DNA from: an uncultured Nitrospiraceae bacterium
GTDB lineage: Bacteria; Nitrospirota; Thermodesulfovibrionia; Thermodesulfovibrionales; Dissulfurispiraceae
Assembly: GCA_903822005.1 (NCBI GenBank)
Contig: CAIJNL010000002.1
Coordinates: 186,001-250,000 of the forward strand
Length of the DNA: 64,000 bases
Direction of reading: 5' to 3'
Shown in pieces: positions 22,458 through 48,779 of the stretch. The stretch's first letter is position 1, and each line of letters begins with the position of its first letter. Below the pieces are notes generated by a model. The model had not been told where the DNA came from, made no database searches, and worked only from the letters and a program-made list of their open reading frames with translations. A program made the position numbers and the translations under genes.

Positions 22458-23426
22458 ATGGCACAAAAACCGGGCAGCATGCCTGAGGTCCTCAAAGTAG
22501 GCGCAAACGAACTGGAGCTGATCATAATCAAAATGTTCAACAAGCTGCCTGACGGCAGCATAGAAACATACTCCTACGGTGTAAATGTTGCAAAAGTCAG
22601 AGAGATATTGCCATTGCCTGTACTTACAAAGGTGCCCGACATGCCTGATTACGCAGAGGCGCTGGCTGAAGTCAGGGGCCAGGTGGTTCCGGTAATAAAC
22701 CTGGGCAAATGGCTGAAGTTCAACCATGACCCGGATACTCAGGTCAAACCCAAAATAGTCATCCTGGAGATGCTCGGCACATGCGTTGGTATGATCGTGC
22801 ACGACGTTGAGCGTATAAGGCGGATCAAGTGGGACCAGATAAAGGCGCCGCCCGCGCTAATGCAGGTAAAACATAGCGGCAGGATAACAGGGGTCACAAA
22901 ACTTGACGATGGCGAAGAATCTCTTCTACTAATACTTGACCTGGAAAATGTGATAGCCGAAATGGGGGCGTTCTCTTCCGCAAAGGCACTGGCCCTCGAA
23001 GATATGGGCAAGGCGTCCAGGGCAAAACTTAACGGGACTGTCCTGATCATAGATGATTCTGCGGTGGCCCGAAGGATACTGAGAGAACCACTTGAGAAAC
23101 TCGGTCTGCAAGTGATCGAAAGCGTTAATGGTAAAGAGGCTTTTAGCGTGCTGGACGATTTTCTTTCCAGAATTGGCGACAAGCCGGTAACGGACCTGAT
23201 ACAGGTAGTCATTACAGACGTTGAAATGCCGGAGATGGATGGTCTCGTCTTTACAAGAAAATTAAAGGCCCACCCGAAACTGAAGTCTCTTCCGGTCGTC
23301 ATTAATACCTCTTTGAGCGCGCCCGAGAACAGGGAAAAGGCAAAACTTGCCGGAGCGGACGGTTATCTGGTCAAGAATGAGCCTTCTCATCTTTTTGAAG
23401 AATTGGCGCCTTTTCTGAAGGGCTAA
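22458..23426 (+). CDS. cheV: Chemotaxis coupling/adaptation protein CheV
   Basis: 322 residues joining a CheW-like scaffold (about 20-175) to a CheY-like receiver (about 190-322). The CheW part shows YSYGVNVAKVREIL, the PDYAEALAEVRGQVVPVINLG strand pair and ITGVTKLDDGEESLLLILDLENV. The receiver has VLIIDDSAVARR (acidic pocket), VVITDVEMPEMDG (phospho-acceptor Asp), NTS and a Lys in YLVKNEPS. CheV couples receptors to CheA and adapts by phosphorylation. No cheA is in the window; two chemoreceptors are 25 kb away. Confidence 0.95.
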   Translation: MAQKPGSMPEVLKVGANELELIIIKMFNKLPDGSIETYSYGVNVAKVREILPLPVLTKVPDMPDYAEALAEVRGQVVPVINLGKWLKFNHDPDTQVKPKIVILEMLGTCVGMIVHDVERIRRIKWDQIKAPPALMQVKHSGRITGVTKLDDGEESLLLILDLENVIAEMGAFSSAKALALEDMGKASRAKLNGTVLIIDDSAVARRILREPLEKLGLQVIESVNGKEAFSVLDDFLSRIGDKPVTDLIQVVITDVEMPEMDGLVFTRKLKAHPKLKSLPVVINTSLSAPENREKAKLAGADGYLVKNEPSHLFEELAPFLKG

Positions 23427-41814: not shown

Positions 41815-43725
41815 TTATCCGCAGAGCTTGTTAATCTCAATGTTCATCGCTTTAAGTTTCCTATACAAAGTGCTCCTGTTTATCCCCAGGCGCTTTGCGG
41901 CCTCTTTCTGATTATATTTCGTTTCCGCAAGGATATTTATGATTCTTGCCCTTTCGCCTTTTTTGTCATTTAAGGGCTGTTCATAAACAGCTTTGCTCTG
42001 CGACGGTCCGAGTATTCTCGCTGCATCCTCTGCCGTTAAAAGATTGCCCTTGGCGGTAACCACCAGCCGCTCAATGTAATTCCTGAGTTCACGGACATTT
42101 CCGGGCCATTCATAGCAGCCGATAAAGGCCTTTGCCTGTTCGTTAAGGGCCAAATGCCTGCCAAACATATTGTTGTAAACCGACAAGAAATGCTCAGCAA
42201 TAAAAAGGGCATCTCCCGGGCATTCCTTTAAAGGGGGCAGCTCCAGCGGCAGGACATTTATTCGATAGAAGAGGTCCTCCCTCAGCGTCCCTTCACTGAC
42301 CAACTGTCTCAGGTCCCTGTTCGTAGCAGCTATGATTCTCACGTCAACAGGCAGGTATTTATCCCCGCCCAGGCGCATGACCCGTCTTTCCTGTATTACC
42401 CTTAGCAGACTCGTCTGTCCGAGCTTGTCCATCTCTCCGATCTCATCAAGAAATATCGTCCCGCCATGCGCCAGCTCGAACAAGCCGGGCTTTCCTTTTT
42501 TCTGTGCTCCCGTAAAGGCGCCTTCCACATATCCGAACAGTTCACTCTCAAGCAGGCTCGACGGAATGGCCCCGCAGTTTACAGCTACAAAAGGTCTCTG
42601 GCGCCGTCTGCCGGCATTATGGATGCTCTGGGCATACAACTCCTTGCCTGTGCCCGATGCCCCTGAAATAAGCACTGTTGCATCAATCTGCGCATATTCC
42701 CTGGCTACGCGCTTGACCTCTGAAATCCCCGAAGAATTCCCGAGTATGTCTTCAAAACGGTACTGGGCGGACAGGCCTTTCCGATAACTCTCGCTGCGGA
42801 TAGCCGCCTCCATCTCTACGATCTGCCCCACGTCTTCGATAGTTATCATCGCTCCTTTCACGCTTTCACCTACGTCGATAGGAATGATGTTAGCCATGAG
42901 TCTCCTGTTGCTGGTGGTAATCAGCTCACCGAGGGTCTCTTTGCCGTCGTGCAAACAGTCACTTAAATGCAATGACGGAAGGATTGCATCAATATTCTTG
43001 CCGAGCGCCTGGTCTGCCTTGAGGCCAAGCAGCCTCTCTGCCGCGCTGTTGAATACCGATATTCTTCTGTCATTGCCGATACTGATGATTCCCTGAATGG
43101 AATAGTCTACGAGCACACGGAATTTTTCCATACGTTCTTTTTCGAGTGTTCGCGCGTACATGACCTTCTCTGCCTGGAGGATCGCCGACCGGTAAGAATC
43201 CTCTCCCGACACAAGAAGCACGGTTTTCATTCCTTTCGATGCAGCCAGAGCCGTTGTACTGATACCTGCGATAAGCACGTCCATATTGTCCTGCAGCACT
43301 CGTTCCACTGTCGGCGCTATTTCCTCTTCAGCAGCAATCTGGTAGATCGTCAGGTCAATGTCCACTACTTTGGCAAATACTTCGATACTGTGGATCATAT
43401 TTTTAAACGCAAGTATGGCGATACGCGGATTATTTGACCCTGTTACCTTTTTGGCATTAAGCAGCGCCTCGGATAAATCCTGAATAGTGATCGGTATCTC
43501 TATTATTGGGACCTGTATGCCGGCCTTGGCAATAAGTTCGGCTGTACCGCCCCTCGAAATTATGACGTCAGCACCGGATGCCTCGACCTTTCGCGCTACT
43601 TCGACCCCTTGGTTAAGAAGCCCAAGATGGGAGTCGATCTTTTCAGAAAGACCCAGCTTTTCAATGACCTGCCTGCCGGTTGTTAGGCTGCTATCGTATG
43701 GCGCAATAAAAGCTATCTTCCCCAT
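41815..43725 (-). CDS. Sigma-54-dependent activator with PrpR-type sensor, PAS and Fis HTH
   Basis: 636 residues. Residues 1-190 match the PrpR N-terminal sensor (GKIAFIAPYDSSLTTGR, ADVIISRGGTAELIAKA, VPIIEIPITIQDLSEAL, AGISTTALAASKGM). A PAS domain follows (about 205-310: VDYSIQGIISIGNDRRISVFN). The AAA+ domain has GASGTGKE, the sigma-54 contact loop EGAFTGAQ, HGGTIFLDEIGEM and the arginine-finger region. A Fis-type HTH ends the protein (YNQKEAAKRLGINRSTLYRKL). PrpR itself responds to 2-methylcitrate, but this gene is divergent from glucarate-type genes that carry perfect sigma-54 promoters, so a sugar-acid-related effector is more likely (inference). Confidence 0.95.
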   Translation of the reverse strand: MGKIAFIAPYDSSLTTGRQVIEKLGLSEKIDSHLGLLNQGVEVARKVEASGADVIISRGGTAELIAKAGIQVPIIEIPITIQDLSEALLNAKKVTGSNNPRIAILAFKNMIHSIEVFAKVVDIDLTIYQIAAEEEIAPTVERVLQDNMDVLIAGISTTALAASKGMKTVLLVSGEDSYRSAILQAEKVMYARTLEKERMEKFRVLVDYSIQGIISIGNDRRISVFNSAAERLLGLKADQALGKNIDAILPSLHLSDCLHDGKETLGELITTSNRRLMANIIPIDVGESVKGAMITIEDVGQIVEMEAAIRSESYRKGLSAQYRFEDILGNSSGISEVKRVAREYAQIDATVLISGASGTGKELYAQSIHNAGRRRQRPFVAVNCGAIPSSLLESELFGYVEGAFTGAQKKGKPGLFELAHGGTIFLDEIGEMDKLGQTSLLRVIQERRVMRLGGDKYLPVDVRIIAATNRDLRQLVSEGTLREDLFYRINVLPLELPPLKECPGDALFIAEHFLSVYNNMFGRHLALNEQAKAFIGCYEWPGNVRELRNYIERLVVTAKGNLLTAEDAARILGPSQSKAVYEQPLNDKKGERARIINILAETKYNQKEAAKRLGINRSTLYRKLKAMNIEINKLCG

Positions 43726-43806: not shown

Positions 43807-43845
43807 TGATGCATTTGCATCAGATATGCGCACCATCTGATGCAT
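43807..43845. promoter_or_regulatory. Upstream activator site array for the sigma-54 regulator
   Basis: Three half-sites make two overlapping palindromes. TGATGCA-TT-TGCATCA spans 43807-43822. TGCATCAGAT (43816-43825) pairs perfectly with ATCTGATGCA (43835-43844) across nine bases. Written as TTGCATCA-N15-TGATGCAT (43815-43845), it matches the site at 47066-47096 in half-site, orientation and gap. It lies 51 bases before the sigma-54 promoter and about 80 bases from the regulator start, as expected for an enhancer shared by divergent genes. Confidence 0.75.
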
Positions 43846-43895: not shown

Positions 43896-43911
43896 TGGCA
43901 CAATACTTGCT
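43896..43911 (+). promoter_or_regulatory. Sigma-54 promoter of the transporter-dehydratase operon
   Basis: TGGCAC (43896-43901), five bases, TTGCT (43907-43911): a perfect match to the sigma-54 consensus with correct spacing. It lies about 95 bases before the transporter ATG, and 43862-43910 matches 47100-47148 at 40 of 49 positions. Confidence 0.93.
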
Positions 43912-44004: not shown

Positions 44005-45351
44005 ATGACAAGCAGCGGAGTCATCAAAGAAGAAAAAAAGAGTCACGTACGGTGGTATATCTGCGCCATGCTGTTCGCCATGACCGCGATCAACTATGCT
44101 GATCGGGCAACACTCTCTCTCGCAGGTCCGGCCGCATCAAAGGAACTGGGAATGGACGCGATTGCGCTTGGATATATATTCTCCGCTTTCGGCTGGTCCT
44201 ATGTGGCCCTGCAGCTTCCTGGGGGCTGGCTCCTTGACCGCTTCGGCTCTAAAAGGGTCTACTTCTGGAGTATCGTAACTTGGTCTATAGCCACCCTTTT
44301 GCAGGGATACGTCGGTCTTTTAGGAACTGCCGCAGCGGCTATTGTGGCCCTCTTCACTCTCCGTCTGCTCCTCGGTGCATTTGAGGCCCCTTCCTTCCCT
44401 GGAAACAGCAGGATCGTCGCCGCATGGTTCCCGAAACAGGAACGCGGGACTGCCGCTGCCATCTTCAATTCCGCGCAATACTTTGCGACAGTGCTGTTTG
44501 CGCCCCTCATGGGCTATATTGTCTACACATTCGGCTGGCAGCATGTCTTTTCGGTGATGGGCGGCATCGGTATTGTTATGGCCTTCGTCTGGCTGAAAGT
44601 CATCTATAATCCAAAAGACCATCCCGGTATTAACAAGGCAGAACTCGACTATATTGAAAAGGGCGGCGCCCTTGTTGATATGGACCATAAGAAGGACGAT
44701 AAAAGCTGCAATGCCCTTCCTACCTGGTGGTGCATCAAACAGCTGCTCGGAAACCGCATGCTGCTCGGCGTATACCTCGGCCAATATTGTATTACCACCC
44801 TCACATATTTCTTTCTGACCTGGTTCCCGGTATATCTGGTAAAGGAGCGCGGCATGTCGATACTCAAAGCCGGATTTGTCGCAATACTGCCGGCCCTGTT
44901 CGGGTTCATCGGCGGAATTCTTGGCGGTCTCTTCTCAGATTTTCTGCTGAGAAGGGGCTATTCGTTATCAGTGGCAAGGAAGACCCCTATTGTCCTCGGC
45001 ATGCTCCTGTCCACAACCATGATTGCCTGCAACTATACCTCCGTTGAATGGGTGGTCATCGCCTTTATGTCAGCTGCCTTCTTTGGAAAAGGCGTAGGTG
45101 CATTAGGGTGGGCCGTGGTTTCCGACACCTCTCCCAAGGAAATCGGCGGTCTGAGCGGCGGTCTTTTCAATACATTCGGTAACACAGCGGCCATTACCAC
45201 GCCTATTGTTATCGGTTACATCGTACAGGGAACCGGTTCTTTTAACGGCGCCCTGGTATTCGTAGGGGCCAACGCGATCGGGGCCATACTCAGCTATCTA
45301 CTGATCGTCGGCGAGATAAAACGCATGGAACTGAATAATCCGGTTGTTTAA
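44005..45351 (+). CDS. Major facilitator transporter, glucarate/galactarate (GudP) type
   Basis: 448 residues with 12 membrane helices, of the anion:cation symporter family. The start VRWYICAMLFAMTAINYADRATLSLA, with Asn-Tyr-Ala-Asp-Arg in helix 1, and SAFGWSYVALQLPGGWLLDRFGSKRVY are typical of GudP/hexuronate-type carriers. SFPGNSRIVAAWFPKQERGTA and the ISPKEIGGLSGG-like region follow. Proton-coupled uptake of an aldarate or related sugar acid is the likely role. AAGGGGG lies six bases before the ATG. It is transcribed from the sigma-54 promoter and followed by the dehydratase gene. Confidence 0.88.
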   Translation: MTSSGVIKEEKKSHVRWYICAMLFAMTAINYADRATLSLAGPAASKELGMDAIALGYIFSAFGWSYVALQLPGGWLLDRFGSKRVYFWSIVTWSIATLLQGYVGLLGTAAAAIVALFTLRLLLGAFEAPSFPGNSRIVAAWFPKQERGTAAAIFNSAQYFATVLFAPLMGYIVYTFGWQHVFSVMGGIGIVMAFVWLKVIYNPKDHPGINKAELDYIEKGGALVDMDHKKDDKSCNALPTWWCIKQLLGNRMLLGVYLGQYCITTLTYFFLTWFPVYLVKERGMSILKAGFVAILPALFGFIGGILGGLFSDFLLRRGYSLSVARKTPIVLGMLLSTTMIACNYTSVEWVVIAFMSAAFFGKGVGALGWAVVSDTSPKEIGGLSGGLFNTFGNTAAITTPIVIGYIVQGTGSFNGALVFVGANAIGAILSYLLIVGEIKRMELNNPVV

Positions 45352-45462: not shown

Positions 45463-46821
45463 ATGAGCACCAATAAAACCAAAGGCAGTTCTTCAGGCGC
45501 ACCGGTTATTACCGAAATGCAGGTAATCCCGGTCGCGGGTTATGACTGCATGCTGCTAAATCTGAGCGGGGCGCACAGCCCCTATTTCACGCGCAATATC
45601 GTAATACTTAAAGACAACGCGGGCCACACCGGCATCGGAGAGGTTCCGGGTGGTGAAAGCATACGCAAGACGCTGGAGGAGGCCCGTCCCCTGGTTGTAG
45701 GAAAGACTATCGGCAACTACAACAGCATACTCAATGCGATGCGGCATAAATTCGGCGACAGGGATGCGGGCGGAAGAGGCCTCCAGACATTTGACCTTCG
45801 CATCGCTATCCATGCCGTGACCGCTGTTGAAACAGCCATTCTCGACCTTCTTGGTCAGTTCCTCGGCGTTCCGGTTGCAGCCCTGCTCGGCGACGGCCAG
45901 CAGAGAGACAAGGTAGAGTTCCTCGGTTACCTCTTCTACGTTGGAGACCGCAAGAAAACCGATCTGCCTTTCCCGAGCGCTCCGAATGAAAAGGATGACT
46001 GGCTAAGACTTCGAAACGAAGAAGCCCTCGATACCAAAGCCATAGTTCGCCTTGCGGAAGCTGCTTACAAGCGCTATGGTTTCAAAGACTTCAAACTGAA
46101 AGGCGGCGTTCTCAAGGGAGAGCTCGAGATTGAGGCTGTAGTAGCCCTTCACGAGCGCTTTCCAGAGGCCCGCGTCACCATAGATCCAAATGGCGCCTGG
46201 TCGCTTGAGGAAGCGATAAGGATCTGCCACGGCCTTCATGGCGTTGTAGCATATGTGGAAGATCCATGTGGAGCGGAAAAAGGGTTTTCCGGTCGTGAGA
46301 TCATGGCAGAGTTCAGGAGAGCAACCGGACTGCCTACTGCAACAAATATGATTGCAACCGACTGGCGCCAGATGGGCCACTCGATACAGCTGCAGTCAGT
46401 GGATATACCGCTTGCAGATCCTCACTTCTGGGGCATGCAGGGTTCCACCCGCGTAGCAATGCTGTGCCACGAATGGGGCTTGATGTGGGGATGCCATTCA
46501 AACAACCACTTCGACATCTCGCTTGCAATGGCCGCTCATGTAGGAGCTGCAGCGCCCGGAAAGACAAGCGGACTCGACACACACTGGATATGGCAGGAGT
46601 GGACCGAACGTCTTACAAAAGAGCCTTTCAAGATCGTCGACGGAATGATCACAATTCCCGACAAGCCGGGACTAGGCGTCGAAATTGACATGGCGCAGGT
46701 CGAAAAGGCGCACAAACTTTACCTCGAAAAAGGTTTGGGCAGCCGCGATGATGCCATGGTCATGCAGTACCTGATCTCAGGCTGGAAGTTCGATAACAAA
46801 CGTCCCTGCCTGGTGCGCTGA
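45463..46821 (+). CDS. gudD: Glucarate dehydratase (enolase superfamily)
   Basis: Converts D-glucarate (and often L-idarate) to 5-dehydro-4-deoxyglucarate. 452 residues, normal length. Catalytic pattern of the glucarate dehydratase group: KxK base in KDFKLKGG, metal ligands in [16 protein letters not shown] and ATNMIATDW, and the His base in [37 protein letters not shown] is also typical. AGGAGG precedes the ATG. It follows the transporter by 111 bases with no terminator between, so it is probably on the sigma-54 transcript. Enzymes for the next steps are not in the window. Confidence 0.93.
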
Positions 46822-46855: not shown

Positions 46856-46894
46856 GGAGATCCTCTTATCCTCCGTGAGAGGGTCTCCCTTTTT
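46856..46894 (+). terminator. Rho-independent terminator after gudD
   Basis: GGAGATCCTCT (46856-46866) pairs with AGAGGGTCTCC (46878-46888) with one G-U pair, followed by CTTTTT. It separates the transporter-dehydratase unit from the chemoreceptor promoter. Confidence 0.85.
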
Positions 46895-47065
46895 CATGCT
46901 CCCACAACCTCTTTGCTGATTGATACACCGTGTTCACATGATGCGTCAATTAATATTTACACCGGCCCGCCAACCCTTCAGCGTTAATTTTGAAACATCA
47001 AAATAATTAATCACCAGATTTTTCTTTATTGACTCATACCCAAACGTTTCATTTGCTTTGATGGT

Positions 47066-47096
47066 TTGCAACAGATGTTTCATGGCGATGTTGCAA
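47066..47096. promoter_or_regulatory. Second activator site, upstream of the chemoreceptor gene
   Basis: TTGCAACA (47066-47073), 15 bases, TGTTGCAA (47089-47096), a perfect inverted repeat. The left arm extended to TTGCAACAGAT matches 10 of 11 bases of TTGCATCAGAT at 43815-43825. Half-site form and 15-base gap equal those of the site upstream of the transporter. It ends 37 bases before a sigma-54 promoter. Confidence 0.7.
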
Positions 47097-47133: not shown

Positions 47134-47149
47134 TGGCATAATACTTGCC
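47134..47149 (+). promoter_or_regulatory. Sigma-54 promoter of the first chemoreceptor
   Basis: TGGCAT (47134-47139), AATAC, TTGCC (47145-47149). The GG and GC at the -24/-12 positions and their spacing are canonical. It is nearly identical to the promoter at 43896 and lies 41 bases before the receptor ATG. Confidence 0.9.
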
Positions 47150-47189: not shown

Positions 47190-48779
47190 ATGATTGACAT
47201 GCTAAATAATATGAAACTCGGTTTACGACTTATGTTGGGATTCGGCCTGGTGCTGGTTCTCACTACAGCAATGATATTTATTGCCATCTACAACATGAGC
47301 AGGGTCCAGGGCAACCTAGATGATATGATGTATAACACCACGCTGGTTTTCCTGCTGATATCTACGGCCATCGTGATAGCCCTGTCGTTGTTCATAGCCT
47401 TTTTCCTAACCCGCAGCATTGTACGCCCATTGAACGCCGGAGTTGATGTTGTAGGAGTGCTGGCCGAAGGGAACCTGAACAGAGACCTGGTTGTCAGTGA
47501 CAGGAATGAAATAGGCAAACTTCTTTCAGGCATGCAGTCCATGGTACTCAAGCTGAGAGAGGTCATAACTAACGTCAAAATATCGGCAGACAACGCATCT
47601 ACCGGCAGCAAGCAGCTTTCTGCTACATCAGATGATCTGAACAAAGGCTCTCATGAACTTTCTTCCCAGATTGACCAGATTGTTACAGCCATGACTGAAA
47701 TATCCCAGACCATAACCGATGTGGCCAAAAATGCGGCCCATGCCGCTGAAGCCAGCAGGAAGGCCTCTGAAACAGCCATGAACGGTAAGCGAATGGTCGA
47801 TACCACGGCCGGAGACATGGTACATATTGCCGAGACTATTCAGCAGGCAGCGAACACTATAGAAGAACTGGGCAAGAGTTCAGCTCAGATAGGGGAGATC
47901 GTGGCGGTCATAAACGATATAGCCGACCAGACCAACCTGCTTGCCCTTAATGCGGCAATAGAGGCGGCCAGGGCCGGAGAACAGGGCAGAGGGTTTGCGG
48001 TAGTTGCCGATGAAGTAAGAAAACTTGCGGAACGGACAAGCCAGGCCACCAGGACCATATCCCAGAGGGTCAGCGGCATACAGACTGCCTCGCAGGAATC
48101 TGTGGATGCCATAAAACGCGGCAGCGCCGCAGTTGAAAAAGGTGTAGTGCTTGCCAAGGAGGCCAGTTCGTCGCTGGTTTCCATTGTCGAGGTATCTGCA
48201 GTGGCAATGGATATGGTCAATCTTATCGCAACTGCCACAGAACAGCAGTCGGCCGCTTCGGAAGAAGTTACAAGAAATATGGCTGGTATTTCTGAAATAG
48301 CAAAGCAGTCGGCAGATGCGGCCCAGCAGATCGGGACCGCGGCCGCCGATCTGTCTAATCTTACAGTCGGATTGAAAGACAGTATCGCTTTTTTCAAGGG
48401 TACGCCCGCAGAGTCCGAGAACCTCGTGAAGAAGGCCGTCAGTTATATTCAAAAAAATGGCAGGGAAAAGGCGTTTGCAGAGATCAGCAATACAGAAGGC
48501 CGGTTCAGGAACAGAGACCTCTTTATATTTGTGCATGATCTGAACGGCAGAGTTCTTGCGCATGGGCGTGATCCCAGAAAGGTCGGGGAAAGCGAACTGG
48601 AAACCAGGGATGCCAATGGGATATTGTATGTGAAAGACCGGATTGAGATGGTCAAGAGACATGGCAACGGGCGTCAGCAATATCAGAACATAAATCCGGC
48701 GACAAAGAAGATAGAGCTCAAGGTGGCATACGTAGAAAAATATGAGGATTTCATGGTGGGATCAGGAGCGTTTAAATAA
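47190..48779 (+). CDS. Methyl-accepting chemotaxis protein with C-terminal cytoplasmic Cache domain
   Basis: 529 residues. Two membrane helices near residues 12-33 and 48-70 enclose only about 15 periplasmic residues. A HAMP domain follows ([17 protein letters not shown]), then the signalling coiled coil with the CheA/CheW-contact tip [20 protein letters not shown] and [17 protein letters not shown]. After the coil, residues about 409-529 form a single Cache domain ([57 protein letters not shown]). That type is normally periplasmic and N-terminal; here it must face the cytoplasm. GGGGGAAG precedes the ATG. The sigma-54 promoter and operator tie it to the glucarate genes. Confidence 0.92.

Follow-up and report, generated by a model that had tools for sequence, protein, structure and literature searches.

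A membrane-anchored chemoreceptor with a C-terminal sCache_2 domain, predicted to be cytoplasmic, beside sugar-acid uptake genes in an uncultured Nitrospiraceae bacterium

The window analyzed here, a 64,000-nucleotide (64 kb) stretch of contig CAIJNL010000002.1 from an uncultured Nitrospiraceae bacterium, contains two adjacent chemoreceptor genes, referred to as MCP1 and MCP2, downstream of genes for a sugar-acid transporter and a glucarate dehydratase-like enzyme (Table 1). The PrpR_N-type activator gene at this locus adjoins the transporter gene, not propionate genes, and a CheW-receiver (CheV-like) protein is also encoded in the window (22458-23426). The ATG start codon of MCP1 is preceded by a purine-rich ribosome site, and Pfam matches combined with a Kyte-Doolittle profile give the order of parts in the product as two membrane helices, HAMP, MCP signaling coil and C-terminal sCache_2 domain, with the signaling hairpin falling within the PF00015 family. 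Roughly 15-20 residues of outer loop separate the two helix cores, in agreement with the earlier note on this DNA, which had them enclosing about 15 residues with no room for a periplasmic sensor; a weak third hydrophobicity peak (residues 329-347) lies within the MCP coil. Given the short loop and the position of its Cache domain C-terminal of the MCP domain, MCP1 does not belong with the canonical extracytoplasmic Cache receptors (topology class I). Its layout is TlpD-like, the ligand domain being C-terminal to the signaling hairpin, and the family of that domain is Cache, not CZB.

Table 1. Features of the MCP1 locus (positions are those of the window).
Feature	Position	Strand	Evidence or remark
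Sigma-54 activator, PrpR_N-PAS-AAA-HTH_8, divergent from transporter	41815..43725	-	Pfam
Inverted repeat TGCATCAGAT-9-ATCTGATGCA before transporter	43816..43844	+	
Sigma-54 type promoter TGGCACAATACTTGC before MFS transporter	43896..43910	+	Near-copy of MCP1 promoter
MFS transporter, D-galactonate/hexuronate type	44005..45351	+	TIGR00893, 484 bits (cut-off 395)
Glucarate dehydratase-like enolase-superfamily enzyme	45463..46821	+	TIGR03247, 814.7 bits, just below cut-off 828.7
Terminator-like hairpin separating the glucarate dehydratase gene from MCP1; 14 pairs followed by CTTTTT	46856..46888	+	
Inverted repeat TGAAACATC ... GATGTTTCA, 74 nt apart, possible MCP1 activator sites	46991..47082	+	
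Sigma-54 type promoter TGGCATAATACTTGC before MCP1	47134..47148	+	Exact match, 41 nt upstream of start
MCP1, chemoreceptor gene, 529 aa	47190..48779	+	ORF and Pfam domains
MCP1 membrane helix 1, core residues 15-33	47232..47288	+	Kyte-Doolittle
MCP1 membrane helix 2, core residues 52-70	47343..47399	+	Kyte-Doolittle
MCP1 HAMP, residues 72-124	47403..47561	+	PF00672, 28.2 bits (cut-off 25)
MCP1 MCP signaling domain, residues 187-370	47748..48299	+	PF00015, 155.7 bits (cut-off 34.6)
MCP1 C-terminal tail and single Cache domain, residues 399-529	48384..48776	+	PF17200, AlphaFold, 4K08 match
MCP2, second chemoreceptor, 559 aa	48881..50560	+	MCPsignal, 132 bits

MCP2 starts 101 nt downstream of MCP1 and probably shares its layout, having two membrane helices with about 5 residues between them. 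Its C-terminal domain of about 165 aa has a weak dCache_1 match that lies under the cut-off (E 1e-3) and was modeled with a pLDDT of 63; the best Foldseek matches of this model are Cache sensor domains (E 2e-4), suggesting that the domain is Cache-like and belongs to a different subfamily, one that is poorly described. Of the 295 genomes in the phylum sample, 4 contain the domain, and a paralogue at G000:C2:275244 shares 54% identity with it.

The C-terminal region of MCP1 matches sCache_2 (PF17200) at residues 428-526 with 48.4 bits (cut-off 25), a match that covers only positions 53-139 of the 155 in the profile, and dCache_2 likewise scores over its cut-off. An AlphaFold model of the C-terminal 131 residues (399-529), which represents the isolated domain and not the dimeric receptor, has a Cache fold at a mean pLDDT of 94.5. 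Its best match among solved structures is 4K08 (Adeh_3718; Z 16.8, rmsd 2.1 over 121 residues), followed by 5G4Y (PscD; Z 16.3) and 2QHK (a Vibrio parahaemolyticus domain; Z 16.3); these top matches are sCache_2 sensor domains, so that the assignment to sCache_2 draws on both a score above the gathering cut-off and the fold. The domain extends from approximately residue 404 to the C-terminus, and the span of residues 409-529 given for it previously was thus essentially right. A c-type heme was considered for the domain and dropped, as it has no Cys.

A search of genome contigs with the full-length receptor returned no relative; relatives were obtained with an alignment of the Cache domain as the query. 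Matches to the Cache profile occurred in 13 of 395 genomes of a phylum-wide set, inferred from shared contigs to be Nitrospirota; outside the present genome, most strong matches lie in open frames 158-198 aa long, and the frames that were read carry an N-terminal stretch resembling a signal peptide. Among the Nitrospirota genomes searched, the receptor fusion is present only in this genome, where it occurs twice, the paralogue of MCP1 on contig C12 having the same Cache fusion. In named genomes, 76 of 79 Cache loci are not MCPs and were nearly all read as small exported proteins; the other three are MCP fusions from Formivibrio citricus, bacterium UBA2219 and an Azoarcus MAG (loci L060, L068 and L111). 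Small exported single-Cache proteins form a widespread family (loci L044-L051 and L061-L138), and the lysine of the pocket is invariant in it. A further survey covered 399 genomes from the order of Formivibrio (which we take to be Burkholderiales) and gave matches spanning both the MCP tail and the Cache domain in 18 further genomes; 17 of the 19 spanning proteins examined, from 16 genomes, hold a recognizable MCP motif. A family-wide survey of this layout was proposed in the earlier note; in the searches made here the fusion recurs, uncommonly, in the paralogue, three named genomes and 16 further genomes of the 399. Since the paralogue and homologues from other lineages share the order of parts, the layout of MCP1 is not a chance composite.

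A short outer loop like that of MCP1 is frequent in these fused relatives, and in about half of the receptors from the order-level survey the two membrane helices lie too close together to accommodate an outer sensor. In six or seven others, approximately 270-300 residues separate the membrane helices. Those with such a region and a C-terminal Cache domain (L201, L203, L205-L207, and L209) are possible two-input receptors in which the Cache domain would provide the second input.

The MCP1 Cache domain has its nearest relatives among exported proteins about 155-190 aa long, and exported single-Cache proteins are 44-54% identical to it across the whole mature protein. Homology between receptors and exported proteins begins in both at the motif GT..EAEALVKKAI, which directly follows the signal peptide in the exported proteins and directly follows the MCP tail FFK in the receptors. 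In MCP1 the join lies at FFK-GT (residues 401-405), and the alignment with the mature exported Cache proteins starts at the GT. The alignments point to a clean fusion event for MCP1, in which a mature exported Cache protein, stripped of its signal peptide, was attached to an MCP. A quick tree of 100 Cache domains requires four changes between stand-alone and fused labels, of which the starred branches force only one, and may thus be compatible with a single origin of the fusion.

In characterized MCPs, HAMP and the CheA-binding hairpin are cytoplasmic. Because the sequence C-terminal of the MCP1 HAMP contains no membrane helix (the only hydrophobic peak there is the weak one of the MCP coil) and no signal peptide occurs at the join to the Cache domain, the Cache domain should lie in the cytoplasm, and the predicted topology in this respect agrees with the previous proposal that a Cache domain placed after the signaling coil must face inward. 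This placing is also supported by a homologue, a 463-aa MCP (L149), which has the same C-terminal domain and, on reading its sequence by eye, no hydrophobic N-terminal helix. An inverted arrangement in which the Cache domain reaches the periplasm would suit a module whose relatives are exported, but it is highly improbable in view of the HAMP and hairpin interposed between the membrane helices and the Cache domain, the character of the join, and the homologue in which no membrane helix is visible.

In Adeh_3718 and PscD, the ligand carboxylate is contacted by Tyr94, His107, Tyr147, and Lys160 (Adeh numbering) and sandwiched by Trp96 and Trp149 (PMC3831638, PMC5062169). Comparison of the MCP1 pocket with this site, which was by alignment only, indicates that His458, Tyr498, and Lys511 are kept, whereas Tyr94 is changed to Phe445, Trp96 to Phe447, and Trp149 to Asn500; the back-wall residue Phe133 is replaced by Arg484. 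With one tyrosine and both tryptophans changed, MCP1 lacks the full contact set of a C2/C3 carboxylate sensor of the PscD/Adeh_3718 type and was not assigned to that class. Among the 100 Cache domains compared, the equivalent of Lys160 is invariant, that of Tyr147 is found in 92, including all 24 fused domains, and that of His107 in 69, including 10 of the 24 fused ones. A carboxylate ligand for the MCP1 domain is therefore plausible, and the changes at Tyr94 and the two tryptophans mean that this ligand may differ or that the site may be degenerate.

The same substitutions could be expected if the Cache domain were not a sensor at all, acting as a stabilizing, dimerizing, or localizing tail or persisting as a degenerate passenger, with sensing, for example of the membrane energy state, left to the membrane helices and HAMP. 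Sensing of the latter kind is known in other receptors and so has precedent, and the fused members that keep about 280 residues between their helices indicate that the Cache domain need not be the sole input. This explanation is nevertheless quite unlikely, since an invariant lysine and a tyrosine present in every fused domain speak against a passive tail, as does the recurrence of the fusion in receptors that have almost no outer loop.

The association of MCP1 with sugar acids is one of position and promoter. Exact matches to TGGCAYNNNNNTTGC occur only twice in the 64 kb, at 43896 before the transporter gene and at 47134 before MCP1, compared with 0.44 expected by shuffling and at least two matches in 6 of 100 shuffles. 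The surroundings of these two sites are identical at 25 of 32 bases, the next best place in the window reaching 20, and no exact sigma-54 site was found in the stretches examined around other MCP genes of the genome. A scan for sigma-70 promoters returned 10 sites where chance predicts 10.5. On promoter sequence, sigma-54 control common to MCP1 and the transporter is likely. The inverted repeat TGCATCAGAT-9-ATCTGATGCA was not found before MCP1, however, and the repeats upstream of the two promoters differ. Placement of MCP1 in an operon with the glucarate dehydratase gene was rejected on account of the strong terminator-like hairpin about 35 nt past the stop codon of that gene, which makes MCP1 probably a separate transcription unit. 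The shared regulation proposed in the earlier note consequently stands as far as the near-identical sigma-54 promoters are concerned and does not extend to the glucarate transcription unit or to the inverted repeats.

The earlier note had further suggested that the receptor monitors an imported or metabolized sugar acid. If the Cache domain sensed glucarate or a breakdown product in a metabolism-coupled manner, the adjoining transporter and glucarate dehydratase-like genes and the sole exact pair of sigma-54 promoters in the window would be readily accounted for, and Arg484 together with the loss of both tryptophans could fit a larger or dicarboxylic ligand. MCP1 is, however, outside the transcription unit, with inverted repeats unlike those of the transporter. 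A reading of neighboring ORFs revealed no aldarate genes beside the paralogue on C12 or the homologues L060, L068, and L111, and no KdgD scored above the cut-off in this genome. The arginine, being present in 36 of the 100 family members, mostly exported ones, is not specific to the MCP1 locus. A sugar-acid ligand is thus unlikely, and the suggestion was not borne out, part of the C2/C3-carboxylate site having been kept in a domain whose homologues are without aldarate neighbors and whose genome yielded no KdgD.

The reading that we favor, with a probability of about 0.62, is that MCP1 is a membrane-anchored receptor whose cytoplasmic C-terminal Cache domain reads an internal small carboxylate. 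The two short-looped membrane helices would serve as an anchor, and the sole recognizable ligand module would be the single Cache domain facing the cytoplasm from the C-terminal end of the signaling hairpin. This domain is proposed to bind a small cytoplasmic carboxylate (a C2-C3 or keto/dicarboxylic acid) via Lys511, Tyr498, and His458, and binding, by analogy with TlpD, might alter CheA activity by displacing the C-terminal helix of the coiled coil at its end. The cell would in this way track its own internal carboxylate level, and the sigma-54 promoter in common with the glucarate transporter suggests that the general conditions under which MCP1 is produced are those of glucarate uptake. 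Energy or metabolism taxis by MCP1 would be reasonable on such a reading of the sequence; it is probably an intracellular quantity that MCP1 uses to direct swimming. A wider proposal, put forward tentatively and with the odds somewhat against it, is that the adjacent MCP1 and MCP2, with Cache domains of different subfamilies, couple swimming to the internal carboxylate pool, that they belong to a dispersed class derived by fusion of exported Cache proteins to MCPs, and that they share a sigma-54 promoter with sugar-acid uptake.

If correct, these fusions would represent an outside-sensing module that now reads the cytoplasm. Recurrent receptors with a cytoplasmic sCache_2 domain would imply that the Cache module can be moved inside the cell, and would bear on the view that location between membrane helices shaped the Cache fold. 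Receptors of the MCP1 type also make it possible to test how a ligand domain at the C-terminus controls a chemoreceptor, and they would be scored as sensorless by pipelines that take only the inter-helix region as the sensor.

Cache is considered the dominant superfamily of extracellular sensors, with 78% of its domains confidently predicted to be extracellular, and the principally intracellular Cache families number only two, both small, with sCache_2 not among them (PMC4822843). A literature search that covered few subscription papers yielded no description of a chemoreceptor whose Cache domain is C-terminal or cytoplasmic, a negative that carries little weight. Among known systems, the small-carboxylate receptors Adeh_3718, PscD, and McpP share with MCP1 the sCache_2 family model and the fold (Z 16-17), as well as the His, Tyr, and Lys of the carboxylate site, with both tryptophans and one tyrosine changed in MCP1; their Cache domain is periplasmic and N-terminal, between two membrane helices, whereas that of MCP1 is C-terminal and predicted to be cytoplasmic. 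The small exported single-Cache proteins have a domain homologous to that of MCP1, but are exported, stand alone and have no signaling part. In TlpD, ligand binding at the C-terminal CZB domain acts on the MCP (PMC12871147), and TlpD and other CZB receptors resemble MCP1 in having a cytoplasmic ligand domain at the C-terminal end of the hairpin (PMC12871147), although CZB, a helical zinc domain, is unrelated to Cache and TlpD is a soluble protein, whereas MCP1 is anchored in the membrane, includes HAMP and carries a Cache domain. The class III chemoreceptors (IIIm/IIIc of Wuichet and Lacal) are, like MCP1, membrane-bound with a cytoplasmic sensor or no outer one (PMC8396549), but the sensor in that scheme lies N-terminal to HAMP and the signaling domain, whereas in MCP1 it comes after both.
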